Source: Pseudomonas lopnurensis
GTDB lineage: Bacteria; Pseudomonadota; Gammaproteobacteria; Pseudomonadales; Pseudomonadaceae
NCBI RefSeq assembly: GCF_015070855.1
Contig: NZ_JADDIX010000070.1
Location: forward strand, 60,378 to 124,377
DNA: 64,000 nucleotides
Reading direction: 5' to 3'
Made by a program: the position numbers and the translations under genes. This document shows, piece after piece, positions 13,901 to 64,000 of this stretch. The notes below the pieces were generated by a model, which made no database searches, was not told the DNA's origin, and saw only the letters and a program-made list of their open reading frames with translations. The first letter of the stretch is position 1, and each line of letters starts with the position of its first letter.

Positions 13901-14737
13901 ATGGACCAGCCACTCACATTTCCCGCCGCGCTGAGCGCCGCGTTCGCCCCGGGCGAAGTCGCTCTGGTCGGCGCCGGGCCGGGCGACCCCGGCCTGCTCA
14001 CCCTGCGTGCATGGAGCCTGCTGCAGCAAGCCGATGCGGTGGTCTACGACCGCCTGGTCAGCGACGGCCTGATGGCGTTGCTGCCGGCCGACTGCAGCCG
14101 CCATTACGTCGGCAAGACCAGCGGCTACCACAGCCTGCCGCAGCCGGAGATCAACCAGCTGCTGGCCGACCTGGCCCTGCAGAACAAGCGCGTGGTGCGG
14201 CTCAAGGGCGGCGACCCGTTCATCTTCGGCCGCGGCGCCGAAGAACTCGAATTCCTCCTGCAGCGCGGCATCGACTGCCAAGTAGTGCCGGGCATCACCG
14301 CCGCGGCCGGCTGCAGCGCCTATGCCGGCATCCCGCTGACCCACCGTGATCTGGCCCATTCCTGCCAGTTCATCACCGGCCATCTGCAGAGCAACGGCGA
14401 GCTGCACCTGCCTTGGGACGCATTGGCCCAGGGCGGACAGACGCTGGTGTTCTACATGGGCCTGGCCAGCCTCGGCGAGATCTCGCGCAACCTGATCGCC
14501 GCCGGCCTGCCAGTGGACACACCCGCCGCGCTGATCGGCAACGGCACGCGGGAGAACCAGCAGGTGGTGCGCTGCACGCTGCGCCAGCTGCCGGGCATGG
14601 CCGATGAGCAGCAACTCACGCCGCCGACCCTGACCGTGATCGGCCGAGTGGTCGGCCTGTTCGCCGAGCGCCAGGTCCAGCATCCGGCGCGGCTGCACGG
14701 TGATCCAGCCGCGCAAACGGAGGCCTTATGCAACTGA
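13901..14737 (+). CDS. nirE: NirE, uroporphyrinogen III C-methyltransferase
   Basis: SAM-dependent methylation of uroporphyrinogen III to precorrin-2, the first committed step to siroheme and heme d1. 278 residues with the SUMT signatures [11 protein letters not shown] (23-33) and [18 protein letters not shown], and [20 protein letters not shown]. The ATG at 13901 has AGGAG eight bases upstream. Overlaps nirN by ten bases. It is denitrification-dedicated by context. Confidence 0.95.
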
Positions 14738-16251
14738 TACCCGCCCTATTGCTGGCCACCGCGCTGCCGGCGGCCACCTTCGTCGCCCTCGACCTGGCCA
14801 TTCCGAGGGCTGCCGCGGCGAACCCGCCAGCCGGTAGCCAGGCGCTGTACGAACAGCACTGCCAGAGCTGCCACGGCGTCAATCGCCTCGGCGGCGCCGG
14901 TCCGGCGCTGCTACCGGAAAGCCTCAGCCGCATCAAGCCGGCCGAAGCCCACGCGGTGATCCGCGACGGCCGCCCGGCGAGCCAGATGGCGGCCTATTCC
15001 AAGGTGCTGGACGAAGCCCAGATCGCCAGTCTGGTCGACTACCTGTATCAGCCTTCCGCGGTAGCGCCGACCTGGAGCGATGCCGACATCCGCGCCAGCC
15101 ACCGCATCCTCAAGGACGTCGCCACCCTGCCGACGACCCCGCAGCACGGCGCCGACCCGCTCAACCTGTTCGTCGTGGTCGAGGCCGGCAATCACCATGT
15201 CCGGGTGCTGGACGGCGATCGTTTCGAGGAGCTGGCGAACTTCCAGTCGCACTTCGCCCTGCATGGCGGGCCGAAGTTCTCGCCGGATGGCCGCTTCGTC
15301 TATTTCGCCTCCCGCGACGGCTGGATCAGCGTCTACGACCTGCACAACCTGAGCATGATCGCCGAGGTCCGCGCCGGGCTGAACACGCGCAACCTGGCGG
15401 TGAGCAACGACGGCCGCTGGGTGCTGGTGGGCAACTACCTGCCGGGCAACCTGGTGCTGCTCGATGCCCGCAACCTGTCGCTGGTCAAGCACATCCCCGC
15501 GGTCGGCCAGGACGGCACGCCGTCACGGGTCAGCGCCGTGTACACCGCGCCACCGCGCGACAGCTTCGTGGTCGCGCTGAAAGATGTGAAAGAGGCCTGG
15601 GAGCTCTCCTATGCCGGCGAGCCAAACTTCGAACCCCGCCGGATCGAGGCCGCCGACTTCCTCGACGACTTTTCCTTCACCCCCGACTACCGCCACCTGC
15701 TGGCCACCTCGCGCAAGGCCCACGGTGGCCAGGTGATCGATCTGGATACCGGCAAGGCGGTCACCGACATTCCGCTGCCAGGCATGCCGCACCTGGGCTC
15801 GGGCATCTACTGGAAGCGCGACGGCAAGTGGGTATTCGCCACGCCCAACGTAAGCAAGGGACTGATCTCGGTGCTGGACCTGGAAACCTGGAAGCTGATC
15901 AAGGAGATTCCCACCGAAGGCCCGGGCTTCTTCATGCGCAGCCAGGCCAACTCGCCCTACGCCTGGACCGACGTGTTCTTCGGCCCGAACAACGACGCCG
16001 TGCACCTGATCGACAAGCAGACCCTGGAAGTCGCCCATACGCTACGCCCGATGCCGGGCAAGAACGCCGCACACGTCGAGTTCACCCATGATGGCCGCTA
16101 TGCCCTGCTCAGCGTCTGGGACGCCGACGGCGCGCTGATCGTCTACGACGCCAACAGCCTGGAAGAGGTCAAGCGCATCCCGATGAACAAGCCCTCCGGC
16201 AAGTACAACGTCGGCAACAAGATCGAGTTCGCCGAAGGCACCTCGCATTGA
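14728..16251 (+). CDS. nirN: NirN, cytochrome c / d1-propeller protein (dihydro-heme d1 dehydrogenase)
   Basis: Periplasmic paralogue of NirS that makes the acrylate double bond of heme d1 and passes it on to NirS. 507 residues: signal peptide (about 1-31), cytochrome c domain with CQSCH at 45-49, then an eight-bladed d1-type propeller ([14 protein letters not shown]..., [17 protein letters not shown]). Last gene of nirJEN; a long palindrome follows. Confidence 0.94.
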
Positions 16252-50652: not shown

Positions 50653-51423
50653 ATGCCTGCCATGCCGCCCGACAGCCTCACCGCCACTCGCCTGCGGGCG
50701 CTGCACGAACAGGGCTTCGCCCTGCTGCCCAGGGTGATCGACGCGGCGCGGATCGCCGAGCTGCGCACGGCCATCGACCGGCTCGAACCGGTTCACTGGG
50801 ACTACCAGGGACTGGTGGACGATCACTACAAGTGCGTCTTCAACCGCTCGCCGTTCTGGCTGCCGTACCTGGACCTGCCCGGCGTGATCGAACTGGCCGA
50901 AGCGGCCCTCGGCGCGGACTGCCACGTCATCGGCCAGACCGCCTGGCGCAGCCACCCGGGCTTCGTCGGCGGCGAACTGCATGCGGACTACCTGGCCATG
51001 GAACTGCCGGAAAGCCTGCTGGCAGACCCGGCATTCGAGCTGCCGATGCAGGTCTGCACCGCGCACCTGTACCTCGACCGCATCGACGCGGATCTCTGCC
51101 CGACCCGGGTGACACCCGGCAGCCACCGCGCCGGGCGCAAGCCGCGCCCGGGCGAAACCCACTGGCAAGGCCGCGAGACCGAGCCGGTGCTGTGCGACGC
51201 CGGCGACGTGCTGTTCTTTCGCAGCGAACTCTGGCACGCCGGCAGCCGCAACCGCACGCGCGACCGCAGCCGCTACCTGCTCCAGGTGCATTACGGCCGG
51301 CGGATGGTGGCGCAGAAGTTCTCACCCTATCTGCACTTCACCTTCGACCCCGAGGTGCTGGCCGCCGCCACGCCGCGCCAACGGCGTCTGCTCGGCGAGC
51401 ACGAGCCGACGGAGTACGACTGA
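50653..51423 (+). CDS. Phytanoyl-CoA dioxygenase family protein
   Basis: 256 residues, cupin-fold 2-oxoglutarate/Fe(II) oxygenase. Iron triad is visible as HADYL (His, Asp) and the distal His in ELWHAGSRN followed by Arg (RDRSRY) for 2-oxoglutarate. Substrate unknown. It stands alone on the plus strand. Confidence 0.82.
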   Translation: MPAMPPDSLTATRLRALHEQGFALLPRVIDAARIAELRTAIDRLEPVHWDYQGLVDDHYKCVFNRSPFWLPYLDLPGVIELAEAALGADCHVIGQTAWRSHPGFVGGELHADYLAMELPESLLADPAFELPMQVCTAHLYLDRIDADLCPTRVTPGSHRAGRKPRPGETHWQGRETEPVLCDAGDVLFFRSELWHAGSRNRTRDRSRYLLQVHYGRRMVAQKFSPYLHFTFDPEVLAAATPRQRRLLGEHEPTEYD

Positions 51424-51661
51424 TCCCGGTACGCGCACACTCCCGCAGCAAGCATTGGCATTGGGCTGTCAGAGCGGAGCATAGTCCTCGTCGGGAACCG
51501 GGCTAAACGGGTGCACAACCACGGCGCACCGCACCCATTGCGCGCACTCGTTCCGCCGACCGGGCACAATCCCCGCGGCATTGCTGACCTGACCATCCGG
51601 TCAACCAATGGCATGACACCTGCTACGGCCGGCCATCACTTCTCGACACGGAGCAACGGCA

Positions 51662-52939
51662 ATGACCCAGCACAGCGACAGCGACTTCCCCTTGAGCGAA
51701 GTGCCGGCAGGCGCGCGCAAGGGCCTGTGGTCCACCTCCATCCTGCTGTTCGGCTTCACCTTCTTCACCGCCACCATGTTCGCCGGCGGCAAGATCGGCC
51801 TGGCCTTCGACTTCAAGACCATGCTCTGGGCGGCAGTGATCGGCAACCTGCTGCTCGGCGCCTATGCCGCGGCGCTCGGCCTGATCGCCTGTCGCAGCGG
51901 CCTGAATTCGGTGCTGATGGGCCGCTTCTGCTTCGGTGAAAGCGGCAGCCGGCTCTCGGACCTGCTGCTCGGCTTCACCCAGGTCGGCTGGTACGCCTGG
52001 GGCACCGCCACCATCGCCATCGTCCTGGTGCGCCTGCTGGAACTGCCGCAAGGCTGGACGATGCCGCTGATGGTGCTGTTCGGCTTCGGTTTCTGCCTGA
52101 CCGCCTTCGTCGGCTACAAGGGCCTGGACCTGCTCTCGCGGGTGGCGGTGCCGGCAATGCTGTTGTTGCTGGTCACTTCACTATGGATCGCCACGCGCGA
52201 CATCGGCGGCCTGGATGCACTGCTGGCAGTAACGCCAGGCGAAAGCATGGACCTCGGCATGGCCATCACGCTGATCTTCGGCACCTTCGTCAGCGGCGCG
52301 ACCCAGGCCACCAACTGGACGCGCTTCGCCAGGAGCGGCAAGGTCGCGGTGTGGGCCAGCCTGATCGGCTTCTTCGTCGGCAACGGCCTGATGATCGTCG
52401 CCGGCGCCTACGGGGCGATCGTCTACCAGCAGCCGGACATCGTCGAGGTGCTGGTGCTGCAGGGGCTGTCGATGGCCGCGGTGGTGATGCTCTTTCTCAA
52501 CCTCTGGACCACCCAGGACAACACCATCTACAACTTCGCCGCCGCCGGCTGCAATCTGCTGCGCACCGAACGGCGCCGGCTGGTCACCTTGAGTGGCGCT
52601 TTCGTCGGCACGCTGCTGGCGCTGGGCGGCATGTACGAACTGCTGATCCCGTTCCTGATCCTGCTCGGCTCGATCATCCCGCCGATCGGCGGCGTGATCA
52701 TGGCCGACTACTTCTACCGCCACCGCGGCCAATACCCGAAACTGGCCGAGGCGCGCCTGCCGAAGTACAACAGCCTGGGCCTGGCGGCCTACTTCCTGGG
52801 CGCCGCCTGCGCCTATTTCTCGCCCTGGATCGCGCCCATCGTCGGCATACTGGTGGGCGCCACGGCCTATATTGTCCTGCACGAGGGCCGGCGCCTGGCC
52901 CTGTCGCGCACGGTACTGACGCACCCGAGCTCACGCTGA
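51662..52939 (+). CDS. codB: Cytosine permease
   Basis: 425 residues with about twelve transmembrane helices, NCS1 family (GGKIGLAFDFKTMLWA, GTFVSGATQATNWTRFAR). It precedes codA by 13 bases. Imports cytosine. Confidence 0.92.
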   Translation: MTQHSDSDFPLSEVPAGARKGLWSTSILLFGFTFFTATMFAGGKIGLAFDFKTMLWAAVIGNLLLGAYAAALGLIACRSGLNSVLMGRFCFGESGSRLSDLLLGFTQVGWYAWGTATIAIVLVRLLELPQGWTMPLMVLFGFGFCLTAFVGYKGLDLLSRVAVPAMLLLLVTSLWIATRDIGGLDALLAVTPGESMDLGMAITLIFGTFVSGATQATNWTRFARSGKVAVWASLIGFFVGNGLMIVAGAYGAIVYQQPDIVEVLVLQGLSMAAVVMLFLNLWTTQDNTIYNFAAAGCNLLRTERRRLVTLSGAFVGTLLALGGMYELLIPFLILLGSIIPPIGGVIMADYFYRHRGQYPKLAEARLPKYNSLGLAAYFLGAACAYFSPWIAPIVGILVGATAYIVLHEGRRLALSRTVLTHPSSR

Positions 52940-52952
52940 ACAAGGAGTCGCC

Positions 52953-54188
52953 ATGAACATCCTCAACGCCCGCCTACGAGGCCGCAGCGGTCTCCATCGC
53001 ATCGAGCTGGATGGCGCGCGGATCGCCGCCATCACCGCGCAGCAGGCGCCGGCCGAAGCCTGCGACGGCGATATCGACGCCGCCAGCAACCTGGTGGTGC
53101 CACCCTTCATCGAACCGCATATCCACCTCGACGCCACCCTCACCGCCGGCGAGCCGGCCTGGAACATGAGCGGCACGCTGTTCGAGGGCATCGAGCGCTG
53201 GGGCGAGCGCAAGGCGCTGGTGACCCACGAGGACACCAAGGCGCGGGCGAAGAAGACCATCGACATGCTGGTCGAGCACGGCATCCAGCACGTGCGCACC
53301 CACGTCGACGTCACCGACCCGACGCTCTCGGCGCTCAAATCGATGCTCGAAGTGCGCGAGGAAACCCGTCACCTGATCGACCTGCAGATCGTCGCCTTCC
53401 CCCAGGAGGGCATCGAGTCGTTCAAGGACGGCCGCGCGCTGATGGCCGAGGCCATCGCCATGGGCGCCGACGTGGTCGGCGGCATTCCGCACTTCGAGAA
53501 CACCCGCGACCAGGGCGTCAGCTCGATCAGGTTCCTCATGGACCTGGCCGAGCGCACGGGCTGCCTGGTGGACGTGCACTGCGACGAGACCGACGATCCG
53601 CAGTCGCGCTTTCTCGAAGTGCTCGCCGAAGAGGCGCGGGTGCGCGACATGGGCCAGCGGGTCACCGCCAGCCACACCACGGCGATGGGCTCCTACGACA
53701 ACGCCTACTGTTCCAAGCTGTTCCGCCTGCTGAAGATAAGCGGGATCAATTTCGTCTCCTGCCCGACCGAGAGCATCCACCTGCAGGGCCGCTTCGACAC
53801 CTACCCCAAGCGCCGCGGGCTGACCCGCGTCGCCGAAATCGACCGCGCCGGGATGAACGTCTGCTTCGGCCAGGATTCCATCGTCGATCCCTGGTATCCG
53901 CTGGGCAACGGCAACATCCTGCGCATCCTCGAAGCCGGGCTGCACATCTGCCACATGCTCGGCTACGAGGATCTGCAACGCTGCCTCGACCTGATCACCG
54001 ACAACAGCGCCCGCACGCTGAACCTGGGCGAGCGCTACGGGCTGGAAGCGGGTCGGCCGGCGAACCTGCTGATTCTCTCGGCGCCGGACGATTACGAGAT
54101 GCTGCGCACCCAGGGCCATGCGCTGCTGTCGATCCGCAATGGCAAGGTACTGATGCGCCGGACACCGGCGCAGATCGAGCGCTACTGA
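52953..54188 (+). CDS. codA: Cytosine deaminase
   Basis: 411 residues, amidohydrolase. Metal and active-site residues are in EPHIHLD (His-x-His), DVHCDETDD, SHTTAMGSYD and FGQDSIVDPWYPLGNG. Deaminates cytosine to uracil. ATG preceded by AAGGAG. Its end overlaps the convergent cytochrome gene by seven bases. Confidence 0.96.
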   Translation: MNILNARLRGRSGLHRIELDGARIAAITAQQAPAEACDGDIDAASNLVVPPFIEPHIHLDATLTAGEPAWNMSGTLFEGIERWGERKALVTHEDTKARAKKTIDMLVEHGIQHVRTHVDVTDPTLSALKSMLEVREETRHLIDLQIVAFPQEGIESFKDGRALMAEAIAMGADVVGGIPHFENTRDQGVSSIRFLMDLAERTGCLVDVHCDETDDPQSRFLEVLAEEARVRDMGQRVTASHTTAMGSYDNAYCSKLFRLLKISGINFVSCPTESIHLQGRFDTYPKRRGLTRVAEIDRAGMNVCFGQDSIVDPWYPLGNGNILRILEAGLHICHMLGYEDLQRCLDLITDNSARTLNLGERYGLEAGRPANLLILSAPDDYEMLRTQGHALLSIRNGKVLMRRTPAQIERY

Positions 54189-57272: not shown

Positions 57273-57560
57273 ATGAGAGGATCACCATGCCCCGCCACCC
57301 AACGCGCGCCGTCCTTGCGCCTGGGCCTGCTCGCCGCACTCTTCACGGTCAGTGTCTGGACCACCTTGGACCGTCAGTACCCGTGTCGCCATGGGCAGCC
57401 AATACCTGGATCCGGCGCTGCTGGCCTTCATCCGCTTCGGCACCGCCTCCCTGGTGCTCGCGCCTTGGTGGTGGCGACGGCGGCGCATCCCCCGCGAGGT
57501 TTCGCCCTGGGTGTTGCTCGGCCTGCTGTGCGCCGGGCTGCCCATGGGACGGCAGGCTTC
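57273..57560 (+). pseudogene. EamA-family transporter, 5' remnant
   Basis: LRLGLLAALFTVSVWTT in one frame and, after a one-base shift near 57365, TVSTRVAMGSQYLDPALLAFIRFGTASLVL in the next give the first two or three helices of a DMT/EamA carrier; homology ends at GLLCAGLPMG near 57550. A full gene would be about 290 codons. The remainder up to 57742 has no gene. Confidence 0.65.
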
Positions 57561-57742
57561 TCGTCACACAGCGTCGACGGATCGCACCAAGCGCCGCGCT
57601 GCGACCGACCGGGGTCGCGAAAGCACGAACACATTCTGATCTGACTGTTCGTGAAATATGCTTCTTTATTTCCCGAAGATAGGGATAGGATTGAAAAATC
57701 CTTTTACAGAATCAGAGAAATGCAAAAAACAGTCCAGACGAG

Positions 57743-58183
57743 ATGGACCGAAGAATTCTGCGGGTTCTCAGCAAGGACGGACGGGCCAGCCTGCAGGAGG
57801 TCGGCAAGCAGGTCGGACTGTCCTCCAGCCCCTGCTGGCAACGGATCAAGCGCATGGAGGAAGCCGGGGTGATCCGGGGCTACGAAGCCCGTATCGACCT
57901 CGCCGAACTCGGCTACCGCGACAACCTGATCGTGATGCTCACCCTCGATCACCACAGCGACGAAACCCTGGAGAAGTTCGAGCGGGCGCTGGCGGAAACT
58001 CCCGAGGTGATCGAGGCCTACCTGGTGTCCGGCGAATACGACTACTTCATCCGCATCGCGGTGAAGGACACCCGCGACTACGAACGATTGCTGCGCGAAA
58101 AGCTCTACCACATCCCTGGCCTGCGGCATTCGGTATCGAGCTTCGTGCTCCGCCAGTTGAAGGCCAGCAGCGTACCGCTCTGA
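57743..58183 (+). CDS. Lrp/AsnC-family transcriptional regulator
   Basis: 146 residues: winged helix (DRRILRVLSKDGRASLQEVGKQVGLSSSPCWQRIKRM, in part) and C-terminal ligand-binding RAM domain (TPEVIEAYLVSGEYDYFIRIAVKD). Likely senses an amino acid. It is next to the uptake/catabolic cluster and may control it. Confidence 0.9.
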   Translation: MDRRILRVLSKDGRASLQEVGKQVGLSSSPCWQRIKRMEEAGVIRGYEARIDLAELGYRDNLIVMLTLDHHSDETLEKFERALAETPEVIEAYLVSGEYDYFIRIAVKDTRDYERLLREKLYHIPGLRHSVSSFVLRQLKASSVPL

Positions 58184-58256
58184 GCTCCACTGAAAACAAA
58201 AACATCCGATGCCCCGAGGGACATCGGATGAACGACGCGGCAAGCGAACTATCGCG

Positions 58257-59783
58257 TCAGACGTGCCAGCGAGAAGGCAGCATCCAGCCATTCTGGAACG
58301 GCTGGTAGCGCAACGCAGTCGTGTGCGCCACGCTCGACACGCCTTGCAGCAGTGGCAGGCTGTAGCCCTGCTCTACCGCCCAGCGCTCGAACGCCTGGTA
58401 GCCGGCGATGCGATTGGCGTAGTCGCGCTCTACCAGCAGTGGACGCAAACGCTCCATCACATCCTCGCTACGCCACACGGAGAACACCGTGTCGGCATTG
58501 AGGTAGCTGCCCGAGTACAGCTCCGGGTCCGCCGTCGAGTTGTTCCACAGCCAAAGAGCAGGACCTTCGAGAGTGCCAGCGGCCACCGACTGGAAGTACT
58601 TGCCCATGTCGATGGTCTCCAGCTCCGCCTGGATGCCGACCTTGCTCCACATCTGGACGATGGCGCGGGCCATCTGGTTGTCGACCGGATGCACGCCATT
58701 GGTGGCGAAGAACTTGAAGCGCACCGGATTGCTCAGGCTGTAGCCAGACCTGGCCAGATAGTCGCGAGCCTTCTGTGCATCGAAGGCCATGCTGAAGTGC
58801 TCGTCATGCGCGGGCGTACCAGGCGGCGAAGGCATCGACAGGGGCTGCGGGTCGCCGTCGAGCAGGGCCCGCGAGAGCACCTCCTTGTCGATGGCATGGT
58901 GCATCGCCAGGCGCACGTTGATGTCGTCCAACGGCGCCTTGTCGAGCATGTGGATGAGATAGGTATCCACGGTCACCGTCAGCGCACTGGTGAGGTTCGG
59001 CATGTCGCCCAGGCGCAGCGCATCACGAATCGGCAGTGCATAGCTGAAGGCAACCTGCCCGGACTGAAGCGCTGACACCCGCGAAGTCGGGTTGGGAATG
59101 ATCTGGATGCTCACCTCGCGCAGGGTCGGAATGCCCCCCCAGTAGCGATCGAAGGCCTCCAACACCACCCGATTGTTGCGCTGATACTCCACCAGCTTGT
59201 ACGGCCCCGAGCCGATCGGCTTGGCCAGGAATGCCTCCATACCCACCTGTTCGATGTATCGCTTGGGCAGGATGAAGGAGCCGGCAAAGCCGAGGTACTG
59301 GGGGGCAGTCACGAAGGGCTTGCTGAAGTGGATGACCGCCCGTGTGGGAGACGGCGTTTCGATACGCTCGATGCCGCTCCAGATGAAGCCCAGTTGCAGC
59401 GACTGATCGGCTTTCAGGCGTTCCTCGAAGGTGTACTTGAAGTCCTCGGAAGTCAGCTTATCGCCGTTGTGGAAATACACGTCGTCGCGAAAATCCAGCG
59501 CCAGTTCCAGCCCGCTGTCGTCAGTCCATTGGTAGGCGCTGACCACGCCACCGGCCAACTGGTTACGCTCGTCATACTGCAAGGGCTGGTCGAACACGCA
59601 TTTGTAGAGCGAGGTGGCCTGCGGGATGATCCGCGCCGTGGGATCCCAGCTGACTACATCGAAGGGAAACGCCAGCGAAACTCTCTCGGTGTCCGCCGCC
59701 AGCACGCGAGCGATGCTCCCCGGGCCCATCAGCAGCGCCAGGGCGCTCAGCGGCGCGGCTCTCAACAAGGTTCTGCGTTGCAT
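58257..59783 (-). CDS. ABC transporter solute-binding protein, peptide/opine type (family 5)
   Basis: 508 residues. N-terminus MQRRTLLRAAPLSALALLMG resembles a Tat signal ending AADTE. The SBP_bac_5 core shows DVVSWDPTARI, LDFRDDVYFHNGDKLTSEDF, KPIGSGPYKLVEY and INVRLAMHHAIDKE. Ligand unknown. No permease or ATPase adjoins it in the window. The next gene upstream, a porin, may form the outer-membrane entry. Confidence 0.88.
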   Translation of the reverse strand: MQRRTLLRAAPLSALALLMGPGSIARVLAADTERVSLAFPFDVVSWDPTARIIPQATSLYKCVFDQPLQYDERNQLAGGVVSAYQWTDDSGLELALDFRDDVYFHNGDKLTSEDFKYTFEERLKADQSLQLGFIWSGIERIETPSPTRAVIHFSKPFVTAPQYLGFAGSFILPKRYIEQVGMEAFLAKPIGSGPYKLVEYQRNNRVVLEAFDRYWGGIPTLREVSIQIIPNPTSRVSALQSGQVAFSYALPIRDALRLGDMPNLTSALTVTVDTYLIHMLDKAPLDDINVRLAMHHAIDKEVLSRALLDGDPQPLSMPSPPGTPAHDEHFSMAFDAQKARDYLARSGYSLSNPVRFKFFATNGVHPVDNQMARAIVQMWSKVGIQAELETIDMGKYFQSVAAGTLEGPALWLWNNSTADPELYSGSYLNADTVFSVWRSEDVMERLRPLLVERDYANRIAGYQAFERWAVEQGYSLPLLQGVSSVAHTTALRYQPFQNGWMLPSRWHV

Positions 59784-59817
59784 CGTTTTATCCTCGTAAA
59801 TCGCTGCCGAGCGAAAA

Positions 59818-61137
59818 TCAGAACGTGTAAACCATGCCAAGACGGAAAGTGTCCTGACGGTTGTCGCTGGAGTTATCCAGGTACCAGCCGGCACCCTGGT
59901 TGGCGCGAATGCCATCGGATGCCTTCATCCAGGAATAGGAGGCGTACAGCCAGGTCTTGTCGGAGAGATCGCGCTTGAGGCCGAAAGTGACCTGATCCCA
60001 GTCGTTACCCTCGAAATCGGACCATTGATAGGCGGCGATGGCCGTGGTCTTCTCAGCGATCGGGTAGTAGCCACCCAGTTCGTATACGTGCTGGGTGGCG
60101 GTCTCCCCGTCACGCTTAAACTTGGTCTGCGAGGTATTGCCGACCAGCGTGAAGTCACCCAGTTGGTAATGCCCACCGACGATAGCGGTCTCCTGATCGA
60201 CGATAAGCGGCGTGCCATCGAAATTGAGCGTCTCACCAAACAGTTCGGTCTTGCCAATCTGTAAGTCGGGATAGATGTCGTTTTTGTCGATGCGCACGTA
60301 AGCCGCCGCCAGGCTCCAGGGGCCGGCGAAGTAGCTGGCGCCCAGGCTGAGCGTTTCCTTGTTGCCCGAGGACTGACCGGGGTAGGCCGCATCGTCGGTT
60401 GCATACATGATGCCAAACTTGAAACCGTCGAAAGTCGCGCTCTGGAACTTGATCGAGCGATCCACCCGCCAGCCGGAAATACGGTCGAAGTCGCCGTGAT
60501 GTCCCGCGTAGGTCGTGGCATAACCGCCGATATTGAGCTGGTTGAGGTAGTCGTAGACGAAGTCGTACTGGCGCCCGAAGGTCAACCGCCCCCACTTGTT
60601 CTCGACTCCTGCATAGGCCTGGCGCCCCCAAGTGGTGCCGTATTGCGAGGTGGTACCATCGCTCAGGTTGAAACCGTGCTCGATGGTGAAGATCGCCTTG
60701 AGGCCCCAGTCCAGATCCTGGGAGCCGGTCAGGCCCAGGCGATTGCCCCAGTTCACCCCGTCGCGCTCACCGAACTTGCTGCTGCCGCCTTCGTCGCTCA
60801 CATAGGTAGCACCGAAGTCGAGCACGCCGTACAACTTGACCTTCTCGGTGATCTCGTCGATCAGGTCAGCAGTGGCCGTGCTGCGCTTGGCCGGCGCTTG
60901 CTGAGCCTGGGTCACCTGCTCTTCGTCAAGCCCCGCAGGCGCCACGGCGGTTGCCGGTGGTTGTTGGGCCTGCTGCTTGGCGAGCGTCTCGCGGACGATT
61001 TTCTCGACCATCGCGCGCACCTGCGCTTTGGCCTCCGGGCTCAGCGAAGCCGCTTCATCGGCGGCCACCAGGCCGCTGTAGGCGAACATCCCGAGCGAAC
61101 ACACAAACGCTAACGTCGAATACCTGCCGATTTGCAT
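59818..61137 (-). CDS. Outer-membrane porin, trimeric type
   Basis: 439 residues with a signal peptide (about 1-26, ends LVAA), an N-terminal coiled coil with a Gln/Ala-rich stretch (30-85), and a 16-strand-like barrel (VKLYGVLDFGATYVS, LGLTGSQDLDWGLKAIF, ..., RLGMVYTF with terminal Phe). The coiled coil before the barrel is like the DUF3138/phosphate-selective or OprO-like exposed region. Co-oriented with the binding protein. Confidence 0.85.
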   Translation of the reverse strand: MQIGRYSTLAFVCSLGMFAYSGLVAADEAASLSPEAKAQVRAMVEKIVRETLAKQQAQQPPATAVAPAGLDEEQVTQAQQAPAKRSTATADLIDEITEKVKLYGVLDFGATYVSDEGGSSKFGERDGVNWGNRLGLTGSQDLDWGLKAIFTIEHGFNLSDGTTSQYGTTWGRQAYAGVENKWGRLTFGRQYDFVYDYLNQLNIGGYATTYAGHHGDFDRISGWRVDRSIKFQSATFDGFKFGIMYATDDAAYPGQSSGNKETLSLGASYFAGPWSLAAAYVRIDKNDIYPDLQIGKTELFGETLNFDGTPLIVDQETAIVGGHYQLGDFTLVGNTSQTKFKRDGETATQHVYELGGYYPIAEKTTAIAAYQWSDFEGNDWDQVTFGLKRDLSDKTWLYASYSWMKASDGIRANQGAGWYLDNSSDNRQDTFRLGMVYTF

Positions 61138-61184
61138 GGCACTGTTCCATTGTCGGATTGATTGGATGGATAAATTGGCAGTGG

Positions 61185-62261
61185 TCAAGGCATAACGCGT
61201 GGGACGGCGGCTTCGACAATATGGAAGTTGCCCTTCGAATCGTCCGCCCCCGCGTCCCTGTGGGTCGTGCGGTTTTGCACCACACTCTTCCCGAAGCCCG
61301 GGGTCACTGCCCGGGGTTCCCGGCGGCGCAGCCACAGGCGCATCAGGTGACGTCTGCGCTGCGGCTCCGGGTAGTCGATAAACTCGGTACGCGAGTGCAG
61401 CGCCGCATGGTTGGAGAGCCACTGGATATCACCGGGACGGAAATCCATCTCGATGGCCATGCCCGGCTCGTAGGTGATCGCCTCGAACAGCTCCAGCAGT
61501 TCTCGCTGCGCCTCGGTCAGGCGCGGCACTTCCGGAAAGTCCTGGGCGGTGAGGATGTACAGCGAGCCGGCGTACATGCTGAAGGTGCCGTCCACCAGGC
61601 TGATGATCGGCGAGCAGTAGGTATTGGCCGGCGCATCCGGGTCCTGGCGGCGCCAGTCCCAGTGGAAGGGTTCGAACAGCAGCGGTGCGAGGTCGGGGCG
61701 ACGGGCCAGGATCTCGTTGTAGATCTGCGCACCGGAGACCAGGCAGGACGCGCCACCGGCCTTGGATGGACGCAGGCACATCAGCGATACCACATCCGAG
61801 CTGTCGGAGTGGAACGGCAGCTTGTCGCGAATCGACTTGGAAAGCGCCGTGGGGTCGTCCAGGGTCTTGTCCGAGGTCGCGTAGATGTGGTCGATCAGGT
61901 CACCCAGCTCGTTCTGCCGCATCGGCTCGCCCATCAGCAGGCCGAGCAGGTAATAGATGGCGGCGCTCAGCGCGTCGGAATACAGCTGGGTGCGCAAGCC
62001 ACGTACCAAGACGAAACCGTGGCCGACGTCGAGGCGCTCCTTCCATTGCGCCACGGCCTCCTGAAGGCTTTCCAGCGGATAGTCGCCGGGCTCGACGCGG
62101 CGCAGGTCCGGATTGTCGGCGATCAGCTGGGCACCGGCGGCCTCGAGTTCGGCGAGCTGCACGTCGTCGAGCAGATAGATCCAGTCGCCACCGCGTCCCA
62201 GCTCGTCGCCGCGCCAGGCGGCCGAGGTGGTGATCGGTTGCAGAGTCAGAGGTTTCGCCAT
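61185..62261 (-). CDS. TauD/TfdA-family 2-oxoglutarate dioxygenase
   Basis: 358 residues. Fe(II) ligands appear as His-x-Asp in FHSDSSD and the distal His in NHAALHSRTEF; Arg in RRRHLMRLWLRRR binds 2-oxoglutarate. The gene is divergent from the VanB-type reductase (start-to-start gap about 190 bases) and in line with porin and binding protein. Substrate unknown. Confidence 0.88.
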   Translation of the reverse strand: MAKPLTLQPITTSAAWRGDELGRGGDWIYLLDDVQLAELEAAGAQLIADNPDLRRVEPGDYPLESLQEAVAQWKERLDVGHGFVLVRGLRTQLYSDALSAAIYYLLGLLMGEPMRQNELGDLIDHIYATSDKTLDDPTALSKSIRDKLPFHSDSSDVVSLMCLRPSKAGGASCLVSGAQIYNEILARRPDLAPLLFEPFHWDWRRQDPDAPANTYCSPIISLVDGTFSMYAGSLYILTAQDFPEVPRLTEAQRELLELFEAITYEPGMAIEMDFRPGDIQWLSNHAALHSRTEFIDYPEPQRRRHLMRLWLRRREPRAVTPGFGKSVVQNRTTHRDAGADDSKGNFHIVEAAVPRVMP

Positions 62262-62451
62262 CGCCGGATGCTCCCAGGGTAGTTCGTTGCGGATGGCAAA
62301 ACTCTCGCAAGATGCCGGCGGGCGATCTTGTCCGGACGCGCATGAAGGCTTGACGCTCGAGCGGCAGACGTCCTAATTCCCGTGCGCAGGTGTCCAAGAA
62401 CTGCCCCGCCGGCTGCGGCCACACTGGCACCAAATCGCTCGGGAGCCTTTC

Positions 62452-63417
62452 GTGAACGCACCCCCTGAACCCTTCACGTCCGCGGTACGACTGCGTGTGG
62501 TCCGCCACGAGCCGGCAGCGCAAGGCGTCACCCTGATCGAGCTGGAACCGGACGACGGCCAGCCGCTGCGCCCGTTCCGCGCCGGCGCCCACTTGGCGCT
62601 GGAACTGAACGCCGGGGTACGCCAGTACTCGCTGTGCAACGGCCCCGCCGAGACCGTGCGCTATCGCCTGGCGGTACGCCTGGAAGCCGACGGCCGTGGC
62701 GGTTCGCGGGAAGTCTGCGAGGACTTGCAGGCAGGCTCGACGCTGAACGCCAGCGGTCCGTTCAACCATTTCCCGCTGGAGGAAGACGATCCCTGCCCGC
62801 TGCTCATCGCCGGCGGCATCGGCATCACCCCGCTGCTGGCGATGGCCCGTGAGCGCGAGGCCCAGGGGCGCGCGTTCGAACTGCACTACAGCGGGCGCAG
62901 CCAGGCCGGCATGGCCTTCCATGAGGAACTGAGCGGGCGTGGCGATGGCCAAGTGTTCTGCTACGCCGATGGCGTGCGCATGGATCTGGAGCAGGTCATC
63001 CCCTCTCCCTCCGCGCGCCACCTGTATGTCTGCGGTCCGGCCCGGCTGATCGATGCGGTGCTAGCCGTCGCCCGCGGCAAGGGCTGGTCCGATGCGCAGG
63101 TGCATTTCGAGCGTTTCGGCGCCGAGGCCCCGGCGGCACTGGACGGCGACGGCGCCTTCGAGGTGCAGATCAAGTCCAGCGGCGAGGTCATCGCCGTCGG
63201 TGCCGAGGAGAGCGTTGCCGACGCCCTGCAGCGGCACGGTCTGTACATCAACCTGTCCTGCGGCTCCGGGGTTTGCGGCAGCTGCCGCCTCGGCGTGCTG
63301 GACGGCGACGTCGACCACCGCGACTACTTTTTCTCCCCCCAGGAACAGGCCGCGAACGACCAGTTCACGCCCTGCTGCTCACGGGCGCGCAGCGCCCGCC
63401 TGGTTCTCGATCTCTGA
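62452..63417 (+). CDS. PDR/VanB-family oxidoreductase (FMN/FAD, 2Fe-2S)
   Basis: 321 residues, GTG start. Order: flavin domain (QYSLCNGP), NAD domain (LIAGGIGITPLLAMA, YVCGPARLIDAV), and C-terminal plant-type ferredoxin with C270-GSGV-C275-GS-C278 and a last Cys near 308. Such proteins reduce Rieske-type oxygenases; no such oxygenase is in view. Confidence 0.9.
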   Translation: MNAPPEPFTSAVRLRVVRHEPAAQGVTLIELEPDDGQPLRPFRAGAHLALELNAGVRQYSLCNGPAETVRYRLAVRLEADGRGGSREVCEDLQAGSTLNASGPFNHFPLEEDDPCPLLIAGGIGITPLLAMAREREAQGRAFELHYSGRSQAGMAFHEELSGRGDGQVFCYADGVRMDLEQVIPSPSARHLYVCGPARLIDAVLAVARGKGWSDAQVHFERFGAEAPAALDGDGAFEVQIKSSGEVIAVGAEESVADALQRHGLYINLSCGSGVCGSCRLGVLDGDVDHRDYFFSPQEQAANDQFTPCCSRARSARLVLDL

Positions 63418-63443
63418 CCCGACCGCTGTGAGGAATCACCCGC

Positions 63444-64000
63444 ATGTCCACGAAGCAATCCCTGAACGCCGGCCGCAGCCATCCCATGCCCAGCGCCCTG
63501 CACACCCTTCGGGCCACCCCGGAGAACGTCCACTGGGGCTATTTTTCCGCTGACCTGGCGCCAGCGCTGAAGGTGCGCAGCGGCGATATCGTGCAGGCCG
63601 AAGCCATCACCCATCACGCCGGCGACGCGCCGGAGCTGATGATGGACGAGACCGTCTGGCGACTGTTCCGGGAAATCCCGGAGAACGACCGCAACCCCGG
63701 TGTGCACATCATGACCGGGCCGATCTGGGTGGAAGGCGCGCAGCCCGGCGACATGCTCGAAGTGCGCTACCTGCAGATGACCCCGCGCAACCGCTACGGC
63801 GCCAACCTCGCGGCCAACTGGGGCTACCTGTACAAGGAGTTCGACGAGACAGAACGCGTCACCATCTACGAGCTGGACACCAACGCCCACAACGCCAAGG
63901 CGCTGTACGCCTACGACGTGAAGGAGAAGTACCTGATCCCCGGCCGCGTCACCCATTGCCCGGAGTGCGACCGGCAACAAGCACTCAACGGCGTGCGCGT
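63444..64000 (+). CDS. Acetamidase/formamidase family protein (partial)
   Basis: The N-terminal 185 codons, open to the window end. The family features are VHWGYFSADLAPAL, GDIVQAEAITHHAGDAPELM, GVHIMTGPIWVEGAQPGDMLEVRYLQM (in part) and NWGYLYKEF. It starts 26 bases after the reductase stop, so the two are an operon. It should hydrolyse a short amide, releasing ammonia. Confidence 0.88.
   Translation, partial: MSTKQSLNAGRSHPMPSALHTLRATPENVHWGYFSADLAPALKVRSGDIVQAEAITHHAGDAPELMMDETVWRLFREIPENDRNPGVHIMTGPIWVEGAQPGDMLEVRYLQMTPRNRYGANLAANWGYLYKEFDETERVTIYELDTNAHNAKALYAYDVKEKYLIPGRVTHCPECDRQQALNGVR

Follow-up and report, generated by a model that had tools for sequence, protein, structure and literature searches.

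A TauD oxygenase and a beta-less Rieske oxygenase inherited together: a probable catabolic island for a nitrogen-containing aromatic compound in Pseudomonas lopnurensis

The window analysed here is a stretch of 64,000 nucleotides from Pseudomonas lopnurensis (bases 60378-124377 of contig NZ_JADDIX010000070.1, in a genome of 4.91 Mb), at the end of which lies a gene cluster containing a TauD/TfdA-type 2-oxoglutarate Fe(II) oxygenase (TauD). A first-pass annotation of the window grouped six genes into one uptake and catabolic set, and supposed that a Rieske oxygenase might lie beyond 64 kb. The sequence past the window is readable on the same contig, and a Rieske oxygenase gene was indeed found there, ~7.3 kb past the window end, which gives the VanB-type reductase of the set an obvious client. 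The six genes are all intact where they had been placed and the named families were matched above the Pfam cut-offs, but the list was incomplete: past the window the cluster continues with an AraC regulator, a LigB extradiol dioxygenase and the permeases and ATPase that complete an Opp-type ABC transporter. The features are as follows, those beyond the window being given in the numbering of host contig segment L009 (window position = L009 position + 55622).

57743-58183, plus strand: Lrp/AsnC regulator (PF01037, E=1e-24)
58257-59783, minus strand: family-5 (Opp/Dpp type) substrate-binding protein, SBP5 (PF00496, E=1e-65)
59818-61137, minus strand: outer-membrane porin, Porin_4 (PF13609, E=2e-45)
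61185-62261, minus strand: TauD/TfdA-type 2-oxoglutarate Fe(II) oxygenase (PF02668, E=1e-30)
62452-63417, plus strand: VanB/GbcB-type NAD(P)H-FAD-[2Fe-2S] reductase (PF00111 and NAD-binding PF00175)
63444-64514, plus strand, crossing the window end at 64000: FmdA acetamidase/formamidase-like amidohydrolase (full-length PF03069, E=5e-37); 185 of its 356 amino acids lie inside the window, and it is complete (356 amino acids) in the host contig
L009:9176-10207, plus strand, beyond the window: AraC (FeaR-like) regulator
L009:10949-11758, minus strand, beyond the window: LigB-type extradiol dioxygenase
L009:11755-13665, minus strand, beyond the window: fused Opp-type ABC ATPase (PF00005 with PF08352, oligo_HPY)
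L009:13667-14542 and 14539-15606, both minus strand, beyond the window: two Opp-type permeases (PF00528 twice)
L009:15632-16852 (~71254-72474 in continued window numbering), minus strand, beyond the window: Rieske oxygenase alpha subunit

The locus is accessory, since neither TauD nor the Rieske oxygenase was found at E <= 1e-60 in any of the 97 relatives searched, 55 of which are of the same genus. A failure of the genes to co-occur in other genomes had been named beforehand as what would speak against a common role; the neighbour survey clearly gave the opposite result, TauD, Rieske and FmdA co-occurring across genera. Of 49 genomes or records to which TauD loci led, 46 contain the Rieske oxygenase, and an FmdA ortholog is present in 47 of 49 when the own genome is counted in. 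In the sphingomonad genus of Novosphingobium profundi (L018), 25 of 120 genomes have a TauD ortholog and all 25 also carry the Rieske gene, while one genome has the Rieske gene alone and 94 have neither (Fisher P ~6e-25, uncorrected for shared ancestry); one extra TauD match is a 43% paralog. Only 13 of the 25 genomes have the two genes at most 25 kb apart; in 7 they share a contig at a greater distance and in 5 they are on separate contigs, so that their co-occurrence is not explained by linkage alone. The fact that the partnership also holds for unlinked genes argues that both oxygenases very probably act in one pathway. To our knowledge, TauD and Rieske oxygenases seldom form an obligate pair. 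Mirror-tree correlations of TauD (Rieske r=0.52, FmdA 0.81, LigB 0.89) were reached by none of 2000 permutations; as shared species history is not removed from these values, they were given no weight. That accessory metabolic genes of different pathways have come together here by chance would fit the absence of the region from close relatives, its rearranged gene order and a Lrp gene unrelated to the set, but this view is largely refuted by the way in which TauD and Rieske accompany each other almost without exception across genera, unlinked copies included, and is considered very improbable.

Five of the six genes originally grouped recur together in other genera; the sixth, the Lrp gene, stands outside the conserved set. 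No Lrp counterpart was found beside TauD in other loci, only two of which hold even a distant relative (33-36%), and the gene is therefore no longer counted in the set. Relatives (30-53%) of the AraC gene that follows FmdA occur in 44 surveyed loci, which makes its FeaR-like product, rather than Lrp, the likely better candidate for a regulator. The nearest TauD relatives are those of P. syringae GR12-2 (L013, 80%) and P. bohemica (L070, 78%), where the genes are compactly arranged as TauD-porin-SBP5-Rieske-permB-permC-ATPase-LigB, with reductase-FmdA divergent (identities 60-86%). A second arrangement, Rieske-LigB-reductase-TauD divergent from porin-SBP, is seen in a Pseudomonadota metagenome bin (L016), Thalassolituus (L066) and an Oceanospirillaceae genome (L068), and in Lampropedia (L015) every part is present, the AraC gene too. 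In Micromonospora endophytica (L063:10001-21049) TauD (60%) has other neighbours than in the proteobacteria: an apparent self-sufficient P450, an amidohydrolase and a BMP-type binding protein.

Both oxygenases have intact iron-binding motifs. In an alignment of 32 orthologs, the iron ligands H150, D152 and H288 of TauD are invariant, as is R303; the protein thus carries the HxD...H triad and downstream arginine of the TauD/TfdA family, and scores above the PF02668 cut-off. A fold search with the TauD model (pLDDT 75) returned FrbJ and TtnM as the nearest solved structures. These are biosynthetic hydroxylases of unrelated substrates, and the fold therefore gives no hint of the substrate. In the Rieske protein, the iron ligands C88/H90/C107/H110 and D205/H208/H213 are invariant. 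It is an alpha subunit only, no beta-subunit gene being present at the locus, and its model found Stc2 (stachydrine demethylase) and CntA (carnitine monooxygenase) as top Foldseek matches (TM 0.67-0.75). With GbcAB, CntAB and Stc2 it shares this closest fold and the combination of a beta-less alpha subunit with a single flavin-plus-[2Fe-2S] reductase, and its best family match is GbcA, that of the reductase being GbcB. A betaine-type (quaternary-ammonium) demethylation could thus be envisaged, in which TauD, which weakly matches TmpA and trimethyllysine dioxygenase, would oxidise a trimethylamino compound, Rieske and reductase would act like GbcAB, CntAB or Stc2, and FmdA would free ammonia from the remaining amide. 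However, identities in the structural alignments are ~20-24%, and the scores fall far below the curated cut-offs: 119.8 bits against 670 for GbcA (NF058607), and 81 against 500 for GbcB. In addition, the invariant Asp in the NNNDGYH motif of the 32 orthologs aligns with the Glu of CntA (MECYH), which we take to be the position bridging the Rieske cluster and the mononuclear iron. On the cut-offs and this Asp/Glu difference, membership of the betaine demethylase families was rejected. Follow-up genes of demethylation (sarcosine/dimethylglycine oxidase, formaldehyde oxidation) were not seen recurring beside the set in the neighbourhoods surveyed, and the linked extradiol dioxygenase would be left without a role. 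A betaine pathway is accordingly regarded as unlikely; the missed cut-offs, the Asp in place of Glu and the adjacent LigB make ring chemistry likelier than betaine demethylation, and favour a putative N-heteroaromatic substrate.

SBP5 begins MQRRTLLRAAPLSALALL (start MQRRTLL), a twin-arginine-like signal, and its orthologs (58-74%) adjoin TauD in six contigs of gamma/betaproteobacterial or related origin, the same six loci in which porin orthologs (46-80%) are found. Together with the two permeases and the oligo_HPY ATPases (PF00496, PF00528 twice, PF00005 with PF08352), SBP5 makes up a full Opp/Dpp importer; its nearest solved relatives, agrocinopine and dipeptide binders, are of low similarity and uninformative on the ligand. 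The reductase has a FAD/NAD part followed by a C-terminal Fer2 domain, the VanB/BenC/GbcB layout, and orthologs adjoin TauD at 60% in two Pseudomonas loci and at 38-49% in others; it is presumed to be the electron donor of the Rieske oxygenase. FmdA resembles the FmdA/AmdA acetamidase/formamidase family in exceeding the PF03069 cut-off, but reaches only 77.5 bits against the 500 required for the formamidase equivalog NF045496. LigB scores above the cut-off for 4,5-DOPA extradiol dioxygenase of the YgiD type (NF007914, 341 bits against 233).

The gene content, the intact iron-binding motifs of TauD and the Rieske protein and the co-occurrence across genera together point, with a probability of about 0.6, to a single catabolic island, accessory and self-contained, that would serve the breakdown of a nitrogen-containing aromatic or heteroaromatic compound. 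This compound would enter through the porin and be taken up by the SBP5/Opp ABC transporter. TauD and the beta-less Rieske enzyme would then oxidise the same substrate in successive steps, the reductase feeding electrons to the Rieske enzyme and not to TauD, and LigB would cleave the resulting vicinal diol in extradiol fashion, this order of the oxygenation and LigB steps being provisional. FmdA may finally hydrolyse the amide or formamide that ring opening frees, with ammonia and an acid as products, and the neighbouring AraC (FeaR-like) protein would control the locus. The amide-hydrolysing last step put forward in the first-pass annotation appears plausible, FmdA being the most conserved partner; the nitrogen-compound degradation proposed there is a putative reading. 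Several observations weigh against this scheme. FmdA was not found in an Oceanospirillaceae bin and two other marine genomes have only distant copies (48-50%), so that amide hydrolysis is not universal. The reductase family is missing from the loci of some genomes, which must use other reductases. LigB falls in the 4,5-DOPA-dioxygenase family, whose members occur outside catabolic clusters too. Finally, beyond reductase-FmdA-AraC, the Rieske-permease-ATPase-LigB block of the host is rearranged compared with the Pseudomonas relatives, which is why it lies outside the window.

A second group of genes goes with the set in sphingomonads and a few other bacteria. It encodes a RutA-like monooxygenase, two RutB-like hydrolases, a ribokinase-like kinase and a relative of 5-nitroanthranilate aminohydrolase, with TRZ/ATZ deaminases, a second TauD, VOC proteins, TonB receptors and MFS transporters in the surroundings. 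In P. syringae GR12-2 and Thalassolituus this second module stands apart from the first, in a locus that also encodes an Opp transporter, an SBP5 and a FeaR-like regulator related to those of the first module:

L098:7502-19889 (P. syringae GR12-2) and L099:6906-19664 (Thalassolituus): separate RutA-like/M20/flavin-reductase loci

The RutA-like ortholog is found in exactly the same 26 of the 120 sphingomonad genomes as the Rieske gene and in 38 of the 49 TauD genomes. The M20 protein is a relative of 5-nitroanthranilate aminohydrolase (E=1e-78). A conserved family related to the same enzyme, represented by L041:16947-18347, occurs with its orthologs in 29 of the 49 TauD genomes; no Pfam model matched it at E<=0.01. 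While RutA-like and RutB-like proteins recall the Rut pyrimidine pathway, those of the second module stay below the equivalog cut-offs (261 bits against 498 and 97 against 378, respectively). An assignment of the RutA-like protein to riboflavin lyase (RcaE) was rejected, RutA being a far better match.

The distribution of these proteins, the two RutB-like hydrolases and the nearby ribokinase and TRZ/ATZ deaminases raise the question whether uracil-fused heterocycles (flavin, lumichrome, pteridine or purine derivatives) are degraded by a pathway of which the host would keep only the lower part. By analogy, and as a lead, the RutA-/RutB-type enzymes could open the fused uracil ring to an ortho-amino acid and the 5-nitroanthranilate-type M20 aminohydrolase could convert this to the ortho-hydroxy acid, leaving TauD, Rieske, LigB and FmdA to degrade the remaining ring. 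A reconstituted lumichrome pathway follows a comparable chemical logic: in the lum cluster of Nocardioides simplex, according to the published account (PMC12746152), LumI and LumM carry out ureide and amine hydrolyses, which the sphingomonad second module mirrors, and these precede Rieske oxygenation of the N-heteroaromatic ring and extradiol cleavage; amide hydrolyses are a further point in common with the cluster described here. The steps are, however, performed by other protein families; the lum system has an alpha/beta Rieske oxygenase (LumC/LumD) with a separate ferredoxin, instead of the beta-less enzyme seen here, as well as a P450, a thiamin decarboxylase and a xanthine oxidase, and the text consulted makes no mention of TauD, FmdA or an Opp transporter (PMC12746152). 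None of the lum hallmarks (self-sufficient P450, thiamin decarboxylase pair, xanthine oxidase, alpha/beta Rieske) is encoded on the host contig segments examined, and the host genome, P. bohemica and Lampropedia lack both the RutA-like ortholog and the M20 protein, the host genome having a separate RutR-A-B-C-like locus. Riboflavin or lumichrome as substrate of the window's own cluster, an idea prompted by the ribokinase and RutA/RutB-like neighbours in sphingomonads, was retained only as a rival, because the host is without the RutA-like module and the published lum genes are different. That the host cluster is the lower part of such a pathway is rated as less probable than a betaine route. 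A wider form of the idea ranks between these two: uracil-fused N-heterocycles (flavin-, pteridine- or purine-like) might be the substrates of an undescribed pathway of two modules that is widespread among Sphingomonadaceae, Caulobacterales, pseudomonads and marine gammaproteobacteria, and in which RutA/RutB/M20 would open the pyrimidine ring and TauD/Rieske/LigB/FmdA would degrade the rest, the latter module being usable alone with its own importer.

Some further features surround the cluster. Just upstream, at window 57352-57639, lies a remnant of an EamA/DMT transporter (E=8e-5, below the cut-off), possibly an insertion boundary of the accessory locus, and at 50653-54188 a PhyH-like 2-oxoglutarate oxygenase and a CodB-like permease (both recognised by eye) stand in tandem with a cytosine deaminase. 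Past the window, the assembly has one ambiguous base (N) at L009:10716 (continued window position 66338), near a frame resembling an F420-type NADP oxidoreductase; such a gene ends the cluster in the Pseudomonas relatives, and the frame may be broken or misassembled in the host. Also on the host contig beyond the window (L010:136-5413), a BMP-family ABC importer adjoins a VOC protein and an IPNS-type 2-oxoglutarate oxygenase that is nearest to thymine 7-hydroxylase (E=1e-48), and oxygenase and VOC genes resembling these adjoin TauD in some sphingomonads.

The enzyme families encoded at the locus are known, while their obligate combination was not found described; literature searches, including full-text searches on homarine, on Rieske/TauD clusters and on RutA clusters, returned no description of the cluster. 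TauD and Rieske are co-inherited across several bacterial classes, and in their phylogenetic distribution they match each other almost perfectly, even where the genes are not linked. This partnership points to a single catabolic pathway, as yet unnamed, whose substrate would be frequent enough in soil, plant and marine habitats for the genes to be retained. The existence of strains with both modules and of strains with the TauD/Rieske module alone makes the pathway directly testable, and naming its substrate would assign a function at once to many genes now carried as 'TauD family', 'aromatic ring-hydroxylating' or 'acetamidase'.

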